Of a DNA stretch of 25,569 nucleotides, positions 2,774-20,362 are shown in pieces. Source of the stretch: a virus. The stretch's first letter is position 1. Each line of letters starts with the position of its first letter. Both the position numbers and the translations under genes were made by a program. The notes under the pieces were generated by a model. That model saw nothing but the letters and a program-made list of their open reading frames with translations, searched no databases and was not told the origin of the DNA. The stretch is from IMG/VR virus record IMGVR_UViG_3300010389_000118, positions 1 through 25,569 of that record; one strand, written 5' to 3'.

Positions 2774-4714
2774 ATGAGTAACTTAACAAGATCGATGATG
2801 ATGGGTGCTGCTGGAGCAGCAGGTGGTGAAGGGTTGTACGCCGATGACGTGTTTAGCACTTATTTGTATGAAGGAAACGGCAGCACGCAGACAATCACGA
2901 ATGGCATTGATCTGGCGGGTGAAGGGGGATTGGTTTGGATTAAAGGTAGAAACGATATTTTTGACCATTATTTAGTTGACACGGAAAGAGGTGTAACTAA
3001 ATATCTGAAGACTCATACTACAGCGGCAGAGGGCACGTCTTCACCAACCTCAAATGTTACATCTTTTAATTCAGATGGATTTAGTCTTGCAGGGTCAAGC
3101 AACGACACAAACAACCCAAATTCCAAAACCTACGCCTCCTGGACATTCCGCAAAGCGCCTGGGTTCTTTGATGTGGTGACTTATATGGGCGATGGCACAT
3201 CTGGACAAACTGTCAACCACGCCTTAGATAGCATTCCTGGATGCATAATTATAAAAAGAACTGATGGCGCAGGCCTGTGGTTTGTTTACCATAGATCTGC
3301 AGACCCAAATAAATACTTGAGACTTGATTCGACAGATGCAGAAACTAACAATGGAGGACCCGCTTTTTCAGCAATAACATCTTCTTCCTTTACTTTTGAT
3401 AGAACTTATTATAGCGACCTCAATCAGTCAGGTCTAACCTACGTCGCCTACCTATTTGCCCACGACGATCAATCGTTTGGGACAGGTGGTAACGAAAGTA
3501 TTATTAAATGCGACCAATATGTAGGTGCAGGCTCGGGCACTGTAAAGGAAATTGATTTAGGTTTCGAGCCTCAGTGGCTAATGGTCAAAAAATCAGACGG
3601 GGTAGAAAATTGGATGATATTAGACAACATGAGAGGTGTCTCTACTGATGGCAATGATGCTTATCTTGTGCCTAACGAGGTTGACGCCGAGGTTTCTAAC
3701 GCCGATCGTATTCGTTTTACGCCTACAGGATTTCAAGCGTATGTCGGCAACATGACCAATCAGCTGAATGCAAACTATATTTATGTAGCAATCCGCCGTC
3801 CGAACAAGCCGCCCGAGGCTGCAACGGATGTGTTTGCAGTTACTAAAGACAATAACGGCAGTCCTTATACTGTTGGGTTTCCTACGGATGCTTTCCTGTT
3901 CAACATTCTTGGTGGTAACGCATTAAACACTACATTTATGAGCCGCCTAACAGGTGGCGGTAAGTATCTTGTATCTTCCAGTGGGGATGCAGAAGGTTCA
4001 TCAGGATTCGCAGCTTTTGATTTACAGAATGACTTTGATCAAAATATCAGCGCATCAAGCAACATAGGGTATAACCTCCGCCGCGCCCCCGGGTTCTTCG
4101 ACGTGGTGGCTTATACGGGCGATGGAACGTTTGATGGCAGCTATAACGTCAACCACAATCTTGAAGTCACACCAGAGTTTATAATAGCTAAAAGCAGAGA
4201 TTCGATAAACAATTGGAATTGTTATCACAAAGACTTGACTTCCGATACTTATCTTATTTCCCTAAACCTTTCATCGGGTGAAACAAATACTGGTCAGTCC
4301 TGGGGGCCTGCTACCACTACATTTAAGCCCCAATATGCTGGCAATTCGGCCTTTAGTTCAAACCACAGTGGAGTAAACTACATCGCCTACCTGTTCGCAA
4401 CCCTACCCGGCACCAGTAAAGTCGGCAGCTATGCCGGCACAGGTTCTGACATTAATGTTGACTGCGGCTTTACAGCAGGTGCTCGTTTTGTCCTAATTAA
4501 ACGCACCGACTCCACTGGTGATTGGTACGTTTGGGACACTGCTCGCGGCATTGTTAGTGGCAATGATCCCTATTTCTTGCTGAATAGCACTGCCGCCGAG
4601 GTCACAAGTACTGACTACATTGACCCGTTAAATGCTGGATTTACAGTTACATCATCTGCGCCTGCTGCCCTTAATGCGTCAGGTGGCACCTACATCTTCC
4701 TCGCTATCGCTTGA
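2774..4714 (+). CDS. Distal tail-fibre/adhesin protein with six beta-type repeats (DUF7483-like), cassette A
   Basis: This 646-aa protein is built from about six degenerate repeats. Each has a strand such as VVTYTGDG, a short turn, a hydrophobic strand such as PEFIIAKSR or GLVWIKGR, and then an aromatic stretch such as NWYVWDTARG. I think the repeats belong to the cyanophage domain catalogued as DUF7483, but could not search. The N-terminus (about 10-45) contains GAAGAAGGE and LYADDVFSTYLYEGNGS and is shared almost unchanged with the 876-aa protein at 14731; the last 80 or so residues are also nearly identical. Two APGFFDVV motifs (residues 128 and 438 onwards) are encoded with quite different codon choices, the second much richer in G and C. 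No catalytic motif is seen, so receptor or glycan binding is the probable job. Confidence 0.7.
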   Translation: MSNLTRSMMMGAAGAAGGEGLYADDVFSTYLYEGNGSTQTITNGIDLAGEGGLVWIKGRNDIFDHYLVDTERGVTKYLKTHTTAAEGTSSPTSNVTSFNSDGFSLAGSSNDTNNPNSKTYASWTFRKAPGFFDVVTYMGDGTSGQTVNHALDSIPGCIIIKRTDGAGLWFVYHRSADPNKYLRLDSTDAETNNGGPAFSAITSSSFTFDRTYYSDLNQSGLTYVAYLFAHDDQSFGTGGNESIIKCDQYVGAGSGTVKEIDLGFEPQWLMVKKSDGVENWMILDNMRGVSTDGNDAYLVPNEVDAEVSNADRIRFTPTGFQAYVGNMTNQLNANYIYVAIRRPNKPPEAATDVFAVTKDNNGSPYTVGFPTDAFLFNILGGNALNTTFMSRLTGGGKYLVSSSGDAEGSSGFAAFDLQNDFDQNISASSNIGYNLRRAPGFFDVVAYTGDGTFDGSYNVNHNLEVTPEFIIAKSRDSINNWNCYHKDLTSDTYLISLNLSSGETNTGQSWGPATTTFKPQYAGNSAFSSNHSGVNYIAYLFATLPGTSKVGSYAGTGSDINVDCGFTAGARFVLIKRTDSTGDWYVWDTARGIVSGNDPYFLLNSTAAEVTSTDYIDPLNAGFTVTSSAPAALNASGGTYIFLAIA

Positions 4715-4839: not shown

Positions 4840-5640
4840 ATGTCAAAGGTAAGAGCCGATAACATATCTAACAGAGCAGATGATGGGGCCCCCGCACTAA
4901 CTTATGGTGTAGAAATTCCTGTTGGGTATGGAATTACTGGTGCTGGTGGTATTAACATTACAGGTGTTGTAACAGCATCAAATGTAAATCTCAGTGGTGA
5001 TGTTACTGTTAGAAATATCACTGGTGTTGCTGCTACATTCACTGGTGTTCTTTCTTATGAAGATGTTGTTAATGTAGATTCAATTGGAGTTATTACTGCA
5101 CGATCTGGAATTAGAGTTGGTGCAGGACAAAGTATCGGTTCTGATGGTGCTGCAGTTGTATATTATGGTGATGGAAGTAATTTAGACGGTGTTGTATCTG
5201 GTATTGAATTAGAACAAGCAGGAAGTTCTGTTGGTACAAGTGTTACTGCAATTAATTTTGCATCTGGAGCAACACTAACTTCAGTTTCTTCTGGTATTTC
5301 AACAGTCACTATTGCTGCTGGTCTCAACACTACAGCAGCAACAGTTTCTGGTATTGTTACTTTCTTATCATTAGATAATGCACAGGATCATAAACTAACA
5401 ATATCAGGTATCAGTACTATTTCTTGTACTGGTGGTAGTGAAGGAGATTCTCATACAGTTAGAATTATAAACTCTGGTATTACTACTGTTGGATTCAGTA
5501 CATTCTTCTTATTCCCATCAGGTTCAACACCATCATTACCAACAGCAGATGGTGCAATTAGTTTGATTTCATTCACGGTACATAGAGTTGGAGCAGGAGG
5601 AACGCAATTACTTGCTGGTGCTTCTGTAAATTATAGCTGA
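4840..5640 (+). CDS. Short repeat-rich tail-fibre protein, cassette B first gene
   Basis: A 266-aa protein of the same family as the gene at 2110. The N-terminal module begins MSKVRADNISNRADDGAP and contains GYGITGAGGINITGV. It passes straight to the middle module (VRNITGVAATF, YEDVVNVDSIG). From about residue 100 it departs: GDGSNLDGV is followed by serine/threonine-rich strands (TSVTAINFASGATLTSVSSG) and a different C-terminal module ending LLAGASVNYS, replacing the STGKTHLF module of cassettes A and D. The next gene starts 13 nt downstream behind a GGAG ribosome binding site. The swapped C-module suggests that this end contacts the partner adhesin, since the partner also differs. Confidence 0.75.
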   Translation: MSKVRADNISNRADDGAPALTYGVEIPVGYGITGAGGINITGVVTASNVNLSGDVTVRNITGVAATFTGVLSYEDVVNVDSIGVITARSGIRVGAGQSIGSDGAAVVYYGDGSNLDGVVSGIELEQAGSSVGTSVTAINFASGATLTSVSSGISTVTIAAGLNTTAATVSGIVTFLSLDNAQDHKLTISGISTISCTGGSEGDSHTVRIINSGITTVGFSTFFLFPSGSTPSLPTADGAISLISFTVHRVGAGGTQLLAGASVNYS

Positions 5641-5653
5641 GGAGATTAGGTAA

Positions 5654-8600
5654 ATGGGAGTTATAATTCCTCAGGTAATCACATCTGATAGAGCAACTGG
5701 TGCTCAGGTTATTGATGGTAGTTTGAAGTTTGATAGTGGTAAAACTCAATATCTTAGTTATAGTCCATCATCCGGCAATCGTAGAACATGGACTTGGAGT
5801 GGATGGGCAAAGAAAGATGTGACTGGGAGTGTTGTTACTCTTATTGGCACTGGAAGTAGTTTAGATTTAGATGTAATTGATTTCCAAGATGAATGTTTGA
5901 GATACACTCGCTCAACAAGCGGATCTTTCAAAACACTAAAAACTAATGCTGTGTTTAGAGATCCATCTGCATGGTATCATATTGTTGTTGCTGTAGATAC
6001 AACTCAAGGAACTGATGCAGATAGAGTCAAGTTATATGTTAATGGTGTACAACAAACCTCTTTTTCTTCTGCCACATATCCTTCCCTAAATGAAGATACT
6101 TACTTTAACAATACCAGCACTTTCACACTTGGTAGGAGGAATGCAAGTCAAGCAGATTATTGGGATGGATATCAATCAAACGTAACCTTTATAGACGGCC
6201 AAGCACTTGGCCCTGAGTATTTTGGATTTACTGACCCACTCACAAACACTTGGAGACCTAAAAAGTTTAAACCACAAGCAACTCCAAATGATGGAACTAT
6301 TTGGAGTTCTAATAGCACAGGAGTTGCTAATGATGGAACAAGTGCTCCTGCAAATGCTTTTGACGGCAATTTAAGTACACAAGTATATACTTCTGGTGGA
6401 GCAAATTCCGAATTATATTACGATATACCTAATTTAACGGTCAACAGTACAGTTAGAGTTTTTATTGAACAACATTCTGAAACTAATGTATCGTTCTATG
6501 TTATAGATACTAATGATGTTAAATATGAATACTTAACTGCTGCTCCATATGCCAGAAAGTGGGTAGATATTGTAGGTGTTGCAGGTAAAACAATAAAAAG
6601 AATTGGTGCTCAAAGAAATTCTAATGGGCACGGAACTGCTCATTTTGCTTGGGAAATTGATGGTGTTATCCTACTTGATGATGATATCACAAATATGGGC
6701 AAAAATGCCTTCTACCTCCCGATGGATGGAAACTCACCAATCGGTCAAGATAAATCTGGTAGAGGAAACGATTGGACACCAGTAAACTTTGGTGGTTCAG
6801 TATCACTTGATAATCCTATTGTATCTGGTGCAAGACCTATTCTGAATACAATTCAAGGTGGAACTCAGGCAGGAGTTGGTGTATTTGGAAGTAAAGTAAG
6901 TAAGTATTATACGCTCACAGGAAGTAGCAATAGCAGCACTGGTTATGTCTTTGAGAATGAAGGGACAAAACCAACTTTAAGTATGATTAGAGGTGCAACA
7001 CATACTTTTGATTATACATCTGCAACATCACATCCACTCTACCTTTCATCATTAAGTGATGGTAAGCATAATGCAAAGGCTTATAGTGTCTCTTTTGATG
7101 GAACTGGTGATTATTTGAGTATTGGTGCGAGTGCTGATTTTAATTTTGGAACAGGAGATTTCACTATTGAAACTTTTGCATATATCAACAATGTACCAAA
7201 TGGTCCAATAGTTAATAATATTGATAATGGAGGTTTCACAACAGGTGGATTTTCAATCAATGAAGATGGAAATATTTTCGTAGCAAATTCTAGTGGAACA
7301 TTCGCATTATGGGGGAATGTTACCTATCCATCAGGTGAATGGTTCCATATAGCAATGACTAGAAGTGGGACAACAGGTAGAGTTTTTATTAATGGAGTTC
7401 TAAAACTTTCAGTAACAAACAGTACGGATATTGGAACAAGTGGTACAAATGATTTAAACATAGGTGCAAGAAGAGGTGGAAGTAGTGGGGTTGGTAGTCT
7501 CGCATATTATCTTAATGGTTATATCTCCAATCTCCGCATCATCAAAGGAACCGCACTCTACACATCAAACTTCACACTACCAACAACCCTGGAGAATGTA
7601 ACAAATACAAAACTTCTGTGCTGTCAGGATAGTGATGCAACAACAGCAGTTGTTTCTCCTGGTGCAATAACTGCAAATGGTGATGCAGCAGCAACTAATA
7701 CATACAACCCATTCCTTTATGATACTGATGGATACTTTGGTGTAGATACTTCCACATCAAATGTCACCAAGATGACAGTTCCACATTATGCTCCTGATAC
7801 ACTTTACTATTACTGTAATGTTCACTCTGGAATGGGTAATAGTATCAGTATAACAACTGACGAAACCAAAGCAGATCCTTATGCCTGGAAGAATGTTCTT
7901 GGGTTGCCTTTGGTTGGTAGTAGTGCTGATGTAAGTAATCAGATTAATAGTGGAAGCACTACAAAGGCAGTCACAGCAAATGGCAATGCTGCTGCTTCAA
8001 GTGACAAAAGTAACTTCTATGATGGAAGTTTTGAATTTGATGGAACTGATGACAGACTTACATTAGATATTGGTGCAGGTGGTTTGGGTTCTGGTGATTT
8101 TACTATTGAGTTTTGGTCTAATTCTGATACAACATCAGGCCAAAGAGGACAGTTTCAACTTTCTCCTACTTCAGGTGGGTTGCTATCAAGTGCTACTAAT
8201 GCTTTGGGTGTTTATCAGAATGGAACAGGTTTTTATAGAATGTATGTTAATGATAGTGGTAGTGCTGATAGCACAGCACCAAATGATTCAAATAAATGGA
8301 ATCATTTTGCTGTGGTAAGATCTGGTAGCACTCAAAAGATGTATGTAAATGGAATTGAATCTTTAAGTGCTTCTAGCAGTATTGATTATACAACCGCAAG
8401 ATATTTGTGTATTGGAGGATATTTCAGCACAACATATCTTTGGGATGGATACATTCAAGATTTCCGTATTTATAAAGGAGTAGCAAAATACACCAGTAAC
8501 TTCATACCAGCATCAACAAACCCAGATATTCTCCCAGACACTCCATCAGGTGTGAGTGGTAGTTCTAAACTCACCAAGATTACTGATGGTGCTGTGAGTT

Positions 8601-11263
8601 TTGATGGCAGTGGTGATTATTTGACATTAGCAAGTAGTAGTGATTTTACATTTGGAACAAATAATTACACCATAGAATGTTTTGTGTATTATAATGCAAC
8701 TTCTAGTGGTTATGTTTATGATTTTAGAAGTGGTGATGGACAGGCACCTGCACTAGCTATTTCAAATGGTACTCTTTTTGCAGGAGGTGCTGGAAATAAT
8801 ATGACTGTATCTAATGTAATTACAACAGGAAAATGGTATCATATTGCTCTTGTACGAAATAGTAATACAGAAACAATTTATATTGATGGTGTCTCTTATA
8901 ATACGCAGTCAAATGCCAATAATTTAGCACAAACAGGTCTTAGCATAGGAAATAGATTTGCAGCAACTTTTTATTATCATAATGGATTTGTTAGCAATCT
9001 ACGTGTTATAAATGGAACCGCACTCTACACATCAAACTTCACACCATCATCAGCACCACTCACAAATGTAACCAACACAAAACTTCTGTGTTGTCAGTCA
9101 AATACTTCTGCTGGTGCAGCAGCAGTTGTTGGCTTGAATGATGGAAGAATTTGGAGTGATGCCTCTCAAACTAATTTTCTTCCAGGAACTTTTTCTAATG
9201 CATTTGATGATAATGCCAGTTCTTATGCAGAAACTACTGCTACCGATGCCATTGGATCTATTACTTTTGATCCAGTAATACCAATCAGTTCTATTACAAC
9301 CTTTAAAGTAAGTTCTGCCGCAAATGGAAATAATAGTCAGAATTGGGGATTTAATGGTGGTTCTATGACTGCCCGAGTATGTAATGGTGTTACAGATTTG
9401 TCGGATCTTTTACCAGGTAGTGGCAATCTCACTTCATTTGAGGTTCAAAAAACTGGTTCTGGTGTTGCTGCTGTTAATGAGATAGAAATTAATGGTGTTA
9501 GGTTGATTAATGGAGGTGGTTCACTTACAGTAAACGGAAACGCAACAGCAACCAACTTCAACCCATTCAACACTGATATCAACACAGTTCGTGGACAAGA
9601 AACTGGTTATGCTACTTTGAATCCTCTTGATAGTGCCACCACTCTTTCAGATGGCAATCTAACTATCACAGGTAGTGGTACTGCTTTTAAAGGTGTAAGG
9701 AGCACTATTGGATTTTCTAGTGGAAAGTGGTATATGGAATGTATATTAAGAGACTATTCAAGTCCGACATCATCTGCTCCAGGTATCTGGAATGATTCAA
9801 GTAGTAACTTAAACACGGGTGCTGGTTCTTATGCTAATGCTTACTTATTTGTTACCGACTATTCTAGTAATTATAGAATTTATACTAATGCAGGTTCATC
9901 AAACCCGTATTCAGAAACAGGATCTCTTTCTGATGGAGATCTAATTGGTATTGCCCTTGACCTTGATAATGGTAAATGCTATGTACATATTAACGGAATT
10001 TATTTGAATGGGGGGGCATCTGTATACGACACATGGCCTGCTGACACTTATTTCTTTGGAGGTTATGAGTATACATCAGGTAATATACTTGACTTTAACT
10101 TTGGTCAAAAACCCTTCAAGTTCCCACCACCAGAAGGTTTCCAACCACTGAATACTGCTAATGTTCGTCCAGAGACTGTGATTGCTCGTCCTGATCAGTA
10201 TGTTGGTATTGTGACTTATACGGGTAACGGTGCAGCAAGAAGTATTACTACCGGGTTCAAACCTGACTTGGTGTGGGTCAAAAAGAGAGGTTCAACATCA
10301 GATAGAAATGTTATTACTGATAGTGTTAGAGGTGCTAATCTTACTTTAAATAGTGATGATGCAAGAAGTGAGGCATCAGCAACAGAAGCGGGACAAATAA
10401 CTGCTTTTAATGGAAATGGATTTTCTCTTGGTACTAACTCTAATGTAACTGGAAATGGAGATACATTTGTTGCCTGGGCTTGGAAAGCAGGTGGAAACTC
10501 AAACACCTTTAATGTTGATGATGTAGGTTATGCAAGTGCTTCTGCTGCTGGATTAGATAGTGGAAGTATTACTCCTACTGGTGCTTCTGTGAGCACTAAG
10601 AGTGGGTTCTCGATTGTTACTTATACGGCACCTTCGTCTGGCGCTTGGACTGTTGGGCATGGGTTAAACGCTGCTCCTGAATTTATTATCACAAAGAGCA
10701 GGAGCAATACTTACAACTGGGGTACGTATCATGTTGACGTAGGCAACACTGGCAGACTTGATCTTAACAGTACTGGCGCTGTTACTACTACTCAAAATTC
10801 GGCTTGGAATAATACAAGCCCGACATCAACTGTATTTAGTATGGGCAGCGATTGGGCTGGGTCCAGTATCACTTACGTCGCCTACTGCTGGCACGATGTC
10901 CCTGGCCTACAGAAATTTGGCAGTTATTCTGGAAATGGCAGTGCCACAGACGGAACGTTCGTGGAATTAGGATTTAAACCAGCTGTTGTCATAATTAAGA
11001 ACTATATTGGATACACTGAAAATTGGTTGATTTTTGATAATCAAAGAAATAAATTTAATATTGTTGACAATTATCTTCATCCAAATACTTCTGGTACTGA
11101 AGACAATCAATTTTATGACATGGACTTTTTATCTAATGGATTTAAACTCTACAATAATGCAGCAGCAGCAAACTCAAGTGGTAACTCTGCCAAGTACATC
11201 TACGCAGCCTGGGCAGAAGCACCTAGCATCAACTTGTTTGGTGGGGGTGCCAACGCAAGATAA
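5654..11263 (+). CDS. Giant multidomain adhesin: four LamG-like domains, split cupredoxin-like domain, discoidin-like and SPRY-like segments, DUF7483-like repeats
   Basis: An 1869-aa open frame without interruption. Domains by eye: LamG-like 1 (about 22-200); discoidin-like segment (about 215-345, with ANAFDG); a linker with SGRGNDWTPVNF; first half of a cupredoxin-like fold (about 416-475, RGATHTFDY and HPLYLS with H460); LamG-like 2 (479-658, ending KLLCCQ); second half of the cupredoxin (about 685-735, VPHYAPDTLYYYC with C721, H724, M727); LamG-like 3 (792-955); LamG-like 4 (980-1148, again KLLCCQ); a second discoidin-like segment (about 1160-1290); a SPRY-like domain (about 1316-1497, GKWYMECIL, FNFGQKPFKF); and three DUF7483-like repeats (from 1516, 1652 and 1756 to the end). 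LamG, discoidin and SPRY folds commonly bind carbohydrate or protein surfaces, so host attachment is the best guess. No signal peptide is present, as expected for a virion protein. GGAG at 5641 decides the start. Confidence 0.75.
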   Translation: MGVIIPQVITSDRATGAQVIDGSLKFDSGKTQYLSYSPSSGNRRTWTWSGWAKKDVTGSVVTLIGTGSSLDLDVIDFQDECLRYTRSTSGSFKTLKTNAVFRDPSAWYHIVVAVDTTQGTDADRVKLYVNGVQQTSFSSATYPSLNEDTYFNNTSTFTLGRRNASQADYWDGYQSNVTFIDGQALGPEYFGFTDPLTNTWRPKKFKPQATPNDGTIWSSNSTGVANDGTSAPANAFDGNLSTQVYTSGGANSELYYDIPNLTVNSTVRVFIEQHSETNVSFYVIDTNDVKYEYLTAAPYARKWVDIVGVAGKTIKRIGAQRNSNGHGTAHFAWEIDGVILLDDDITNMGKNAFYLPMDGNSPIGQDKSGRGNDWTPVNFGGSVSLDNPIVSGARPILNTIQGGTQAGVGVFGSKVSKYYTLTGSSNSSTGYVFENEGTKPTLSMIRGATHTFDYTSATSHPLYLSSLSDGKHNAKAYSVSFDGTGDYLSIGASADFNFGTGDFTIETFAYINNVPNGPIVNNIDNGGFTTGGFSINEDGNIFVANSSGTFALWGNVTYPSGEWFHIAMTRSGTTGRVFINGVLKLSVTNSTDIGTSGTNDLNIGARRGGSSGVGSLAYYLNGYISNLRIIKGTALYTSNFTLPTTLENVTNTKLLCCQDSDATTAVVSPGAITANGDAAATNTYNPFLYDTDGYFGVDTSTSNVTKMTVPHYAPDTLYYYCNVHSGMGNSISITTDETKADPYAWKNVLGLPLVGSSADVSNQINSGSTTKAVTANGNAAASSDKSNFYDGSFEFDGTDDRLTLDIGAGGLGSGDFTIEFWSNSDTTSGQRGQFQLSPTSGGLLSSATNALGVYQNGTGFYRMYVNDSGSADSTAPNDSNKWNHFAVVRSGSTQKMYVNGIESLSASSSIDYTTARYLCIGGYFSTTYLWDGYIQDFRIYKGVAKYTSNFIPASTNPDILPDTPSGVSGSSKLTKITDGAVSFDGSGDYLTLASSSDFTFGTNNYTIECFVYYNATSSGYVYDFRSGDGQAPALAISNGTLFAGGAGNNMTVSNVITTGKWYHIALVRNSNTETIYIDGVSYNTQSNANNLAQTGLSIGNRFAATFYYHNGFVSNLRVINGTALYTSNFTPSSAPLTNVTNTKLLCCQSNTSAGAAAVVGLNDGRIWSDASQTNFLPGTFSNAFDDNASSYAETTATDAIGSITFDPVIPISSITTFKVSSAANGNNSQNWGFNGGSMTARVCNGVTDLSDLLPGSGNLTSFEVQKTGSGVAAVNEIEINGVRLINGGGSLTVNGNATATNFNPFNTDINTVRGQETGYATLNPLDSATTLSDGNLTITGSGTAFKGVRSTIGFSSGKWYMECILRDYSSPTSSAPGIWNDSSSNLNTGAGSYANAYLFVTDYSSNYRIYTNAGSSNPYSETGSLSDGDLIGIALDLDNGKCYVHINGIYLNGGASVYDTWPADTYFFGGYEYTSGNILDFNFGQKPFKFPPPEGFQPLNTANVRPETVIARPDQYVGIVTYTGNGAARSITTGFKPDLVWVKKRGSTSDRNVITDSVRGANLTLNSDDARSEASATEAGQITAFNGNGFSLGTNSNVTGNGDTFVAWAWKAGGNSNTFNVDDVGYASASAAGLDSGSITPTGASVSTKSGFSIVTYTAPSSGAWTVGHGLNAAPEFIITKSRSNTYNWGTYHVDVGNTGRLDLNSTGAVTTTQNSAWNNTSPTSTVFSMGSDWAGSSITYVAYCWHDVPGLQKFGSYSGNGSATDGTFVELGFKPAVVIIKNYIGYTENWLIFDNQRNKFNIVDNYLHPNTSGTEDNQFYDMDFLSNGFKLYNNAAAANSSGNSAKYIYAAWAEAPSINLFGGGANAR

Positions 11264-14730: not shown

Positions 14731-17361
14731 ATGGATCCGATTACTTTTGGAATAACACTAGGTGCGGCTGGAGCAGCAGGTGGTGAAAAGTTGTACGCCG
14801 ATGACGTGTTTAGCACTTATTTGTATGAAGGTAATGGTAGCACACAAACGATCAGGAATGGGATAGGACTGGTGGATGGCGTGAACATTCTCCCTGGCAC
14901 TGCATTAGGGGGAGGCTATTTCGCTGGATTTATTAGCCAAACGGCTGATGGTAATGCAACACATGCGCTAATTGTTGCACCTGCGGCTTCTGGTTACAAC
15001 GGCAAGACAACGTTGCAATGGAAAACATCACAAACCAGCACTTCCGGCACTACCAGCGAATATGATGGTGCTGCCAATACTGCTAACATGGCTGATGCCA
15101 ATCATCCCGCCGCTAATTACTGTGCGGGTTTGACGATTGGTGGCTATAGCGATTGGTATTTGCCTGCACGATATGAGCTTGAGATTGCGTATTACAATTT
15201 GAAACCAACCACTACAAGCAACAACACTGGTTTCGGTACGAATAGCTATGCCGTACCGCAGCGTGGGTCGAATTATACGGCAGGAAATCCAGCGCAGACA
15301 AGCGTTGCTGCCTTTCAGAGTGGTGGTGCAGAAGACTTTATTGCGACCAACCACTGGTCGTCCACGGAGGGCAGCTCCACGGCCGCATGGAAGCTGGTCT
15401 TCAGTACTGGCAACCAGGTCGCCGACGGCAAGACGAGCGCCCTCTACGTTCGTGCCTTCCGCAAAATTGCGATCAACGATTCCCTCCTTGATCCTTATCG
15501 CGTAACAGGTGAAGGTGGATTGGTTTGGATTAAAAATAGAGAAAATGCGTTTCAAGATAACGCACTTTTCGATACTGAAAGAGGTGCTGGTTATGTTTTA
15601 TCTTCAAACACGACGGGTGCTCAATTCCTTAGCACTAGTAGATTAAGTGCGTTAAATTCCAATGGATTTACGGTTGGAGGTGATACTGCAACTAATGAAT
15701 CTGGTAAGGCTATTGTCTCCTGGACCTTCCGCAAAGCGCCTGGGTTCTTTGATGTAGTTACTTATACGGGTACAGGTAGTGCCAGAACTGTTGCACATAA
15801 CTTAGGTAGTGTGCCGGGGATGATAATGATCAAAAATCTTGACAATTCAGGTCCTTGGTGGGCTGTTTATCACCATAGCCTTGGAAATCAAGTTTTATAT
15901 TTAAATGAAACCACTGCAGTACAGCCAGCAGGTGCAATGTGGGATAACACCACTCCAACTTCTTCAGTATTTACAGTTGGTACTCCATCTAATGTTAACA
16001 CGTCTGGAGAAAATTACGTCGCCTACTTGTTCGCCCACGACGATCAATCGTTTGGCACGAATGGTAACGAAAGTATTATTAAGTGTGGTGAATGGACGGG
16101 CAATGGCACAGTAAATAATGCGACAACCGAACAGCCTGGGCCGGAGATTAACTTGGGCTGGGAGCCTCAGTTTGTGTTAATCAAGAATGCTTCCGCTACC
16201 GGCGATTGGTGGATATTCGACACCATGCGCGGCTTTGTAGTAGATGGAAATGGTGTTCAGTCCTACCTATATACGAACACCAGCGCAGCCGAGGGCACAA
16301 TCGGAGGTAGCTTCCAATACCTTAAGCTAACTTCAACCGGATTTAAGATCACAGCGGGTACAGGTGCTTATTTTAATGAATCAGGCAATAAGTACGTCTA
16401 CATGGCAATCCGCCGTCCGCATAAGCCGCTTGAGGCTGGTACGGATGTGTTTGCTATAGATACATACGGTGGCACTGCTCCTACGCCACCCACATGGAAT
16501 TCTGGGTTCCCTGTTGATTGGGGTTGGTATAAATACTCTAATCAAGCAAATGAGTGGGCAACCGGCACTCGTTTATTGCAGGGAAAAAAGATTGTACTGA
16601 ATACGACTGCTGCAGAAACTAGCGACGGCGCCCATGTGTTCGATTACCAGAATGGATGGCTAAATAATACCGGCACTTTATCTACGCTTTATAGTTGGAT
16701 GTTCCGCCGCGCCCCCGGCTTCTTCGACGTGGTGGCTTGGATTGGTGACAGTCAAGCTACGGGTGCAGACGGTAAAAAAATTCAACCTCACGGGCTTGGT
16801 GTAGCGCCAGAACTCATACTTATGAAAAATAGGACCAACACATGGGATTGGTGGAGCTGGCACAAAGACCTTACCTCTTCCGCTACTAGGCAAGAATACG
16901 CCATTCGATTAAATTTAAGCGATGCAGAGATTGAGCTTCATAGCGCTGGCACTGGTCCTTTGCTTCCTGATGCGGATAATTTTTATTTAGCATCTGGAAC
17001 TCAATTAAATCAAGCTGGTTATCCTTATATTGGCTACCTCTTCGCAACTCTTCCTGGCATCAGCAAAGTCGGCAGCTATACCGGCACAGGTTCTGACATT
17101 AATGTTGACTGCGGATTTACTGCAGGTGCTCGATTTGTTTTAATTAAACGAATGGATGCCAGTGGTGATTGGTACGTCTGGGACACTGCTCGCGGCATTA
17201 TTAGTGGCAATGATCCGTACCTTCTGATTAACTCCACCGCTGCCGAAGTCACAAGTACTGATTACATTGACCCGTTAAATGCTGGATTTACAGTGACATC
17301 ATCTGCTCCTGCTGCCCTCAACGATAGTGGCGGCACCTACATATTTTTAGCAATTGCATAA
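14731..17361 (+). CDS. Distal tail-fibre/adhesin with DUF7483-like repeats and an inserted DUF1566/Lcl-type domain, cassette D
   Basis: An 876-aa paralogue of the 646-aa protein at 2774. It shares the N-terminal LYADDVFSTYLYEGNGS block (21-37), the later repeats (SFGTNGNESIIKC, RRPHKPLEAGTDVFA) and a nearly identical C-terminal 80 residues (GSDINVDCGFTAGARFVLIK). The main difference is about 210 residues (48-258) inserted inside the first repeat, between NGIGL and GEGGLVWIK, which are adjacent in the 646-aa protein. The insert contains GGYSDWYLPARYELEI (137-152), HWSSTEG (208-214) and YVRAFRKI (239-246). This is the signature of DUF1566/Lcl-type domains, which have a C-type-lectin-like fold. 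The part near 15350-15470 uses markedly more G and C than its surroundings. The protein is probably a receptor-binding protein with an added lectin-like head. Confidence 0.75.
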   Translation: MDPITFGITLGAAGAAGGEKLYADDVFSTYLYEGNGSTQTIRNGIGLVDGVNILPGTALGGGYFAGFISQTADGNATHALIVAPAASGYNGKTTLQWKTSQTSTSGTTSEYDGAANTANMADANHPAANYCAGLTIGGYSDWYLPARYELEIAYYNLKPTTTSNNTGFGTNSYAVPQRGSNYTAGNPAQTSVAAFQSGGAEDFIATNHWSSTEGSSTAAWKLVFSTGNQVADGKTSALYVRAFRKIAINDSLLDPYRVTGEGGLVWIKNRENAFQDNALFDTERGAGYVLSSNTTGAQFLSTSRLSALNSNGFTVGGDTATNESGKAIVSWTFRKAPGFFDVVTYTGTGSARTVAHNLGSVPGMIMIKNLDNSGPWWAVYHHSLGNQVLYLNETTAVQPAGAMWDNTTPTSSVFTVGTPSNVNTSGENYVAYLFAHDDQSFGTNGNESIIKCGEWTGNGTVNNATTEQPGPEINLGWEPQFVLIKNASATGDWWIFDTMRGFVVDGNGVQSYLYTNTSAAEGTIGGSFQYLKLTSTGFKITAGTGAYFNESGNKYVYMAIRRPHKPLEAGTDVFAIDTYGGTAPTPPTWNSGFPVDWGWYKYSNQANEWATGTRLLQGKKIVLNTTAAETSDGAHVFDYQNGWLNNTGTLSTLYSWMFRRAPGFFDVVAWIGDSQATGADGKKIQPHGLGVAPELILMKNRTNTWDWWSWHKDLTSSATRQEYAIRLNLSDAEIELHSAGTGPLLPDADNFYLASGTQLNQAGYPYIGYLFATLPGISKVGSYTGTGSDINVDCGFTAGARFVLIKRMDASGDWYVWDTARGIISGNDPYLLINSTAAEVTSTDYIDPLNAGFTVTSSAPAALNDSGGTYIFLAIA

Positions 17362-19847: not shown

Positions 19848-20075
19848 GTGATTAACTTAATTAAAAAGTTTTTTTCTCCCACCATTAAAGAATCAGAATC
19901 TGCTTTCTATCTTGCTGATAAAATCATAGAACTGCAAGAGAGAGTTGCTGAATTAGAGAGAGAAAATCGTGAATTAAACGATCTTATTCTTGAAATAGAA
20001 ACATCACTCAAATCACAGATTGACAAAATTCATCCTGTGATATATAATATCCAAGAAAACAACAAAGGTACATGA
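19848..20075 (+). CDS. Coiled-coil protein of unknown function
   Basis: A 75-aa protein from a GTG start. After a short N-terminus ([20 protein letters not shown]) there is a clear heptad region, [20 protein letters not shown], continuing [13 protein letters not shown], about 40 residues long. It probably forms a dimeric coiled coil. It overlaps the ferredoxin gene by 4 nt, so the two are co-translated. No good ribosome binding site is visible at the GTG. Confidence 0.55.
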
Positions 20076-20362
20076 CTTATTCTATTACACTAAAAACTTC
20101 TGAAGGTGAACAAACTATTGAGTGTCAAGATGACCAGTACATTCTTGATGCTGCTGAAGAGGCAGGTGTAGATCTTCCTTATTCTTGTCGTGCTGGTGCT
20201 TGTTCCTCCTGTGCTGGTAAAATTGAGTCTGGTACGGTGGATCAAAGTGATCAATCTTTCCTGGATGATGACCAAATGGAAGCAGGATTTGTCCTTACCT
20301 GTGTTGCTTATCCTACAAGTGACTGTGTGATTGTCACTGAACAAGAAGAAAATCTGTACTGA
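20072..20362 (+). CDS. petF: Plant-type [2Fe-2S] ferredoxin
   Basis: A 96-aa protein, the normal length for photosynthetic ferredoxins. The cluster ligands are C39, C44, C47 (CRAGACSSC) and C77 ([11 protein letters not shown]). The [20 protein letters not shown] block is typical of cyanobacterial proteins. It carries electrons at low potential from photosystem I to acceptors such as NADP reductase or bilin reductases. Phage copies are thought to keep such pathways running during infection. It is an auxiliary metabolic gene known from several cyanophages. AAAGGT precedes the ATG, which overlaps the upstream stop. A late-promoter motif follows directly after the gene, so ferredoxin itself probably belongs to the early/middle transcript. 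Confidence 0.95.

Follow-up and report, generated by a model that had tools for sequence, protein, structure and literature searches.

A cupredoxin-like domain with a putative type 1 copper site, split by a nested LamG domain in a phage tail/adhesin-like protein

The locus and its carrier protein

The window analyzed here, a 25,569-nucleotide stretch covering positions 1 to 25,569 of the IMG/VR record IMGVR_UViG_3300010389_000118, is regarded as a fragment of a cyanophage-like myovirus because its flank genes match the Synechococcus phages Bellamy and S-SM2. A long open frame on its plus strand encodes a protein of 1869 amino acids that groups with virion structural and tail proteins by PHROG matches. 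The frame and the domains in its downstream part are as follows.

5654..11263, plus strand: tail/adhesin-like virion protein, 1869 amino acids, carrying the nested domain (open frame; PHROG virion structural and tail fiber matches)
8027..8569, plus strand: a second LamG, covering residues 792-972 and not nested (Laminin_G_3 stretches; profile rows)
8591..9178, plus strand: a third LamG, covering residues 980-1175, likewise not nested and sharing 42% identity with the nested LamG (profile rows)
10190..11224, plus strand: C-terminal DUF7483 domain, residues 1513-1857 (Pfam PF24299, E 6.3e-92)

DUF7483 (PF24299) occurs in three neighboring proteins of the window (2774-4714, 10190-11224, and 14731-17361), ending the 1869-residue adhesin and being repeated in the other two. 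Elsewhere in the window, an open frame at 20072-20362 resembles a plant-type 2Fe-2S ferredoxin by its motif, as read by eye.

Two halves of one domain around a LamG module

The first-pass annotation of this DNA had proposed that the adhesin contains the two halves of a single cupredoxin-like domain with a complete LamG-like domain lying between them, and had named four residues as potential copper ligands. These residues (H460, C721, H724, and M727) and the accompanying motifs lie exactly where they had been placed, with RGATHTFDY starting at residue 446, HPLYLS at 460, and APDTLYYYC at 713 in the translation. The borders of the halves and of the insert were refined by aligning the window protein with intact relatives and with the LamG domain of phage Syn1, which gave the following features.

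6899..7072, plus strand: N-terminal half of the cupredoxin-like domain with strands 1-4, residues ~416-473 (profile iE 7.2e-13; pLDDT ~77-94 in the second structural model; 72% identity to contig L004, whose domain is intact)
7031..7033, plus strand: H460, first putative copper ligand, in an HP motif (column His in 421/426)
7073..7729, plus strand: nested LamG/concanavalin-A-like module within the strand 4-6 loop, residues ~474-692 (Laminin_G_3 3.6e-18; fold Z 15.7; 48% identical to the Syn1 LamG)
7730..7870, plus strand: C-terminal half of the cupredoxin-like domain with strands 6-8, residues ~693-739 (profile iE 3.8e-17; pLDDT mostly 84-94; ~81% identical to L010)
7814..7816, plus strand: C721, putative copper ligand (column Cys in 420/426)
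7823..7825, plus strand: H724, putative copper ligand (column His in 420/425)
7832..7834, plus strand: M727, putative axial copper ligand (column Met in 418/425)

Both flanks were recovered by a profile built from 11 uninterrupted domains of other phages, with the window excluded. It matches residues 416-490 and then, in the correct order, residues 696-741; a second profile of 88 rows picks out both of these segments in the window record. An IMG/VR search with the region retrieved near relatives with an uninterrupted domain (L004, L009, L010, and L011), in which a representative stretch reads RGVTYTFDYSAASSHPFRFATAADAAGSTEYTTGTSISGNVISFTVPYNAPDTLYYYCTNHSGMGNSIS. Residues ~405-475 and ~696-760 of the window protein align with the single domain of these relatives at 46-81% identity, the C-terminal half alone at 69-81%. 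The spacing from the first His to the Cys is 261 residues in the window protein, against 40-75 (median 47) in intact domains. With the threshold at E 1, Pfam reports no cupredoxin for the window protein. Of 88 intact relatives, 16 are matched by its Copper-bind model at E ≤ 0.1, the best of them at 7.6e-5; the copper-type domain is largely missed by Pfam.

The insert itself is recognized by Pfam, scoring 66.6 bits against Laminin_G_3, above the curated cutoff of 27.6, and aligning over residues 479-681 with the free-standing LamG domain of Syn1. In a first AlphaFold model, computed from a LamG-rich alignment, the LamG core is confident, and residues ~482-667 (model positions 103-288) adopt a concanavalin-A-like jelly-roll with Z up to 15.7; fold searches with this model listed mainly LamG-like folds. 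The annotation of the insert as a complete LamG-like domain is thereby borne out.

Predicted structure of the split domain

A second AlphaFold model was computed from an alignment of 118 intact relatives, and in it the two halves reach pLDDT values of mostly 84-94. Since these relatives supply no rows for the LamG domain, that domain is unstructured in the model, and the short YTTG strand of the relatives was misplaced into the LamG region; high confidence for both domains together is found in neither model. All of the 50 best VIA-align matches of the second model are cupredoxin domains (Z 7.7-9.2, rmsd ~3 Å, ~97 aligned residues), each spanning model positions ~34-360 and thus drawing on both halves. 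Among them are the N-terminal domain of the Hyphomicrobium denitrificans nitrite reductase (Z 9.2), rusticyanin (Z 8.5), small laccases (Z ~8.4), and a multicopper oxidase. A Z of 8-9 for the split model is moderate, and Foldseek alone gave weak matches at E 0.1-0.6. Because intact relatives were already aligned to the two halves together in the input, the model does not count as evidence separate from the homology described above. With that qualification, the halves are modeled as one Greek-key barrel of 7-8 strands, and as regards the joining of the halves, the structure prediction that the first-pass annotation had put forward as a check returned one cupredoxin fold instead of two separate pieces.

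In this model, H460 lies just before strand 4, C721 at the end of strand 7, and H724 and M727 in the loop between strands 7 and 8, which are the ligand positions of type 1 copper proteins. The C-x2-H-x2-M spacing is that of amicyanin. By known cupredoxin topology, the connection between strands 4 and 6, which holds the LamG domain, would be the variable one at the pole far from copper, where azurin carries its flap.

Conservation of the putative ligands

Among 426 distinct intact domains, the columns of H460, C721, H724, and M727 are the four most conserved, at 98-99%, ahead of the aromatic and glycine positions of the core. C, H, and M were required in some of the domain searches, and HP in one; of the domains recovered solely through the HP requirement, 98 of 98 have C, H, and M. 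The complete HCHM pattern occurs in 418 of the 426 intact relatives, and in the 88-row alignment A4 these four columns, and no others, show no variation. In all five domains without the first His (the paralogous domains of L149, L146, L089, L086, and L069), the remaining three putative ligands are gone too, a joint loss that is expected of a shared metal site. One further domain has lost the Cys, and its aligned end is missing, while the Met alone is changed in L439 (to Gln) and L366 (to Lys). Gln serves as the axial ligand in stellacyanins.

The window protein displays the type 1 ligand set, a His on strand 4 followed by Cys-x2-His-x2-Met around the 7-8 loop, and the reading of H plus CxxHxxM as such a set gains from both its frequency among relatives and its fit to the predicted strands. 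Single members of the family match the NCBIfam models for plastocyanin, halocyanin, and amicyanin (best 4e-4 to 3e-3). Profile matches to PDB entries, which keep the ligands in register, reach only marginal values (E 0.015 for plastocyanin and E 0.033 for pseudoazurin), and a sequence search of the PDB found no solved structure of this domain family.

Insertions in the strand 4-6 loop

Among the matches listed, with near-identical contigs counted once, at least 7 domains are split and at least 426 are intact. Six of the seven inserts begin after the same SDGxHN-like turn, which marks this loop as a recurrent insertion site. The LamG insertion is confined to the window among the seven split domains, and no close relative with the same insertion was found among the matches listed. 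L008 and L243 carry mutually related inserts (~160 and ~310 residues, respectively) in the loop occupied by the window LamG, and L277, L193, and L179 have shorter beta-rich inserts there. In L012 (~5464-6138), a discoidin-like insert of ~110 amino acids (F5_F8_type_C, a weak match at E 0.007) occupies the next loop. Judged by eye from the sequences, the loop inserts probably fall into four kinds. LamG and discoidin-like modules are also ordinary neighbors in the same proteins. From these alignments, the strand 4-6 loop looks like a recurrent docking site, and the nested arrangement of the window protein is one case of recurrent loop insertion.

Several details accompany this picture. A second His, H472 (window 7067-7069), sits in the SDGxH turn ahead of the insertion and is kept in ~84% of the relatives that bear the turn. 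The inserts of L008 and L243 are framed by NC...NCGVEYT and belong to no Pfam family; the NC pair suggests a disulfide closing the base of the insert. Syn33 and S-RIM12, whose matches cover the query broadly, were rejected as further nested cases, the stretch read in Syn33 holding a LamG without CxxHxxM after it. L115, in which a LamG tail runs into a YYYCSSHSGMG end, was left out of the nested count because its contig starts there.

Proposed arrangement and alternatives

We propose, with a probability of about 0.78, that residues ~416-739 form one cupredoxin domain that carries a LamG domain in its strand 4-6 connection, retains an amicyanin-like putative copper site, and most likely acts as a probably copper-loaded scaffold for lectin display. 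What is observed is the homology of the split domain, the predicted fold of both parts, ligands that are conserved and are lost jointly, and a loop that has been reused; the domain probably carries copper. The LamG insertion begins directly behind the SDGxHN turn, probably at the end of the barrel that faces away from the metal site, a placement at opposite ends that follows known cupredoxin topology. The fold could therefore still close, with H460, C721, H724, and M727 kept as the predicted site. The barrel would then be a rigid, probably copper-loaded structural module of the tail adhesin, with the LamG displayed sideways, where it would most likely bind sugars of the host surface. PHROG tail annotations and the LamG family point to a role in adhesion; a redox role is no more than a possibility.

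Other explanations differ in how much of this arrangement they dispute. At one extreme, the flanks could be two unrelated short stretches around a LamG, resembling a cupredoxin by chance, as the lack of a Pfam cupredoxin hit at E 1 would allow; the two independent, correctly ordered profile matches and the uninterrupted relatives, up to 81% identical and aligning to both flanks, refute this, and we give it almost no weight. The nesting could also be an assembly or recombination artifact of one contig, given that among the matches listed LamG is seen in this loop only in this 25.6 kb metagenome fragment. Both joins, however, are in frame within the 1869-residue frame and sited in a loop, and on different contigs six further domains are split at this loop or at the one next to it, which makes an artifact highly improbable.

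The likeliest alternative accepts the fold and disputes the metal: the cupredoxin barrel may have been kept as a structural module only, its conserved residues forming no copper site in the virion and instead holding zinc or serving as structural Cys and His. The domain is found in many virion proteins without an obvious redox partner, and copper is scarce in marine waters, so this explanation retains some weight. Structural use alone nevertheless predicts neither ligand columns conserved above the core positions nor their joint loss, and members of the family match plastocyanin, halocyanin, and amicyanin models; we therefore consider it unlikely and prefer a probably copper-loaded cupredoxin.

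Relation to known proteins

By model comparison, the domain shares its fold with cupredoxins of the amicyanin, plastocyanin, and rusticyanin type (PF00127, TIGR02656, TIGR02657, and TIGR03102), as well as the order of a His followed by Cys-x2-His-x2-Met on strand 4, strand 7, and the 7-8 loop. Unlike these proteins, it resides in a phage tail protein, continues from the first ligand as HP where they have HN, holds a domain of ~219 residues in the strand 4-6 connection, and, in the window protein, falls below Pfam recognition in sequence. The nitrite reductase and small laccase domains that are its best structural matches (Z 9.2 and 8.4 over ~97 residues) belong to redox enzymes without a lectin insert. 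The window insert is a plain member of the LamG/concanavalin-A-like lectins (Laminin_G_3), with two more downstream in the same protein, and differs from ordinary LamG domains in lying inside another domain. In PHROG 677 and 30742 (baseplate wedge tail fiber connector and tail fiber protein), the domain is uninterrupted and no copper function is annotated.

Metal in phage tails has a precedent in the HxH motifs that hold iron in tail fibers such as T4 gp37, the subject of the 'Ferrojan/Trojan Horse' idea (PMC11705849). The likeness is that of a metal, here putatively copper, in a marine phage tail protein, whereas the metal site and the fold differ: residues 405-760 contain no HxH motif, with His only at 450, 460, 472, 565, 711, and 724. 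A copper site that functions in the virion would be the copper counterpart of the iron idea.

Occurrence of the domain

Pattern scans found the copper-type domain to be widespread in IMG/VR, with at least 426 intact domains, and it is present in isolate phages of Synechococcus, Prochlorococcus, Pelagibacter, and Methylophilales, in proteins whose annotations read tail fiber, virion structural protein, or baseplate wedge-tail fiber connector; the isolated cyanophages S-TIM5 and P-SSM2 are among the carriers of the intact domain. All 11 intact relatives compared match the PHROG 677 and 30742 phage families, and proximal tail fibers are among the BFVD matches, none of which is strong. The first-pass annotation had called a copper-binding site with a lectin domain on one of its loops unusual for a phage adhesin, a judgment that stands for the nested domain, which is rare, and falls for the cupredoxin-like domain as such, which is common in the tail proteins of marine phages. 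A partial literature search found no cupredoxins or blue copper proteins in phage tail fibers; for cupredoxins in cyanophages it gave a single paper, on Borgs, which is unrelated.

If the domain binds copper, type 1 sites would be present in the tails of abundant ocean viruses, including cyanophages, pelagiphages, and methylophages, with a bearing on how stable virions are, on how they attach, and on the trace-metal chemistry of the ocean. A broader proposal is tentative, and we lean against it in its full form: the domains in marine phage tails would make up a large unrecognized family with true type 1 copper sites that function in the virion, in stability or in redox- or copper-dependent attachment, and adhesin domains in general would dock at their strand 4-6 loop. 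Regardless of copper, a barrel loop that takes LamG and other modules illustrates a simple way for phages to exchange receptor-binding parts while leaving the carrier unbroken.

The domain also occurs in marine bacterial genome assemblies, and some of these matches may be phage contigs. One of the bacterial proteins, L536 from Marinifilum, is a protein of 156 residues that looks like a small lipoprotein made up of the copper-type domain alone, encoded on a 623-kb contig, and would be a convenient cellular member for biochemistry.
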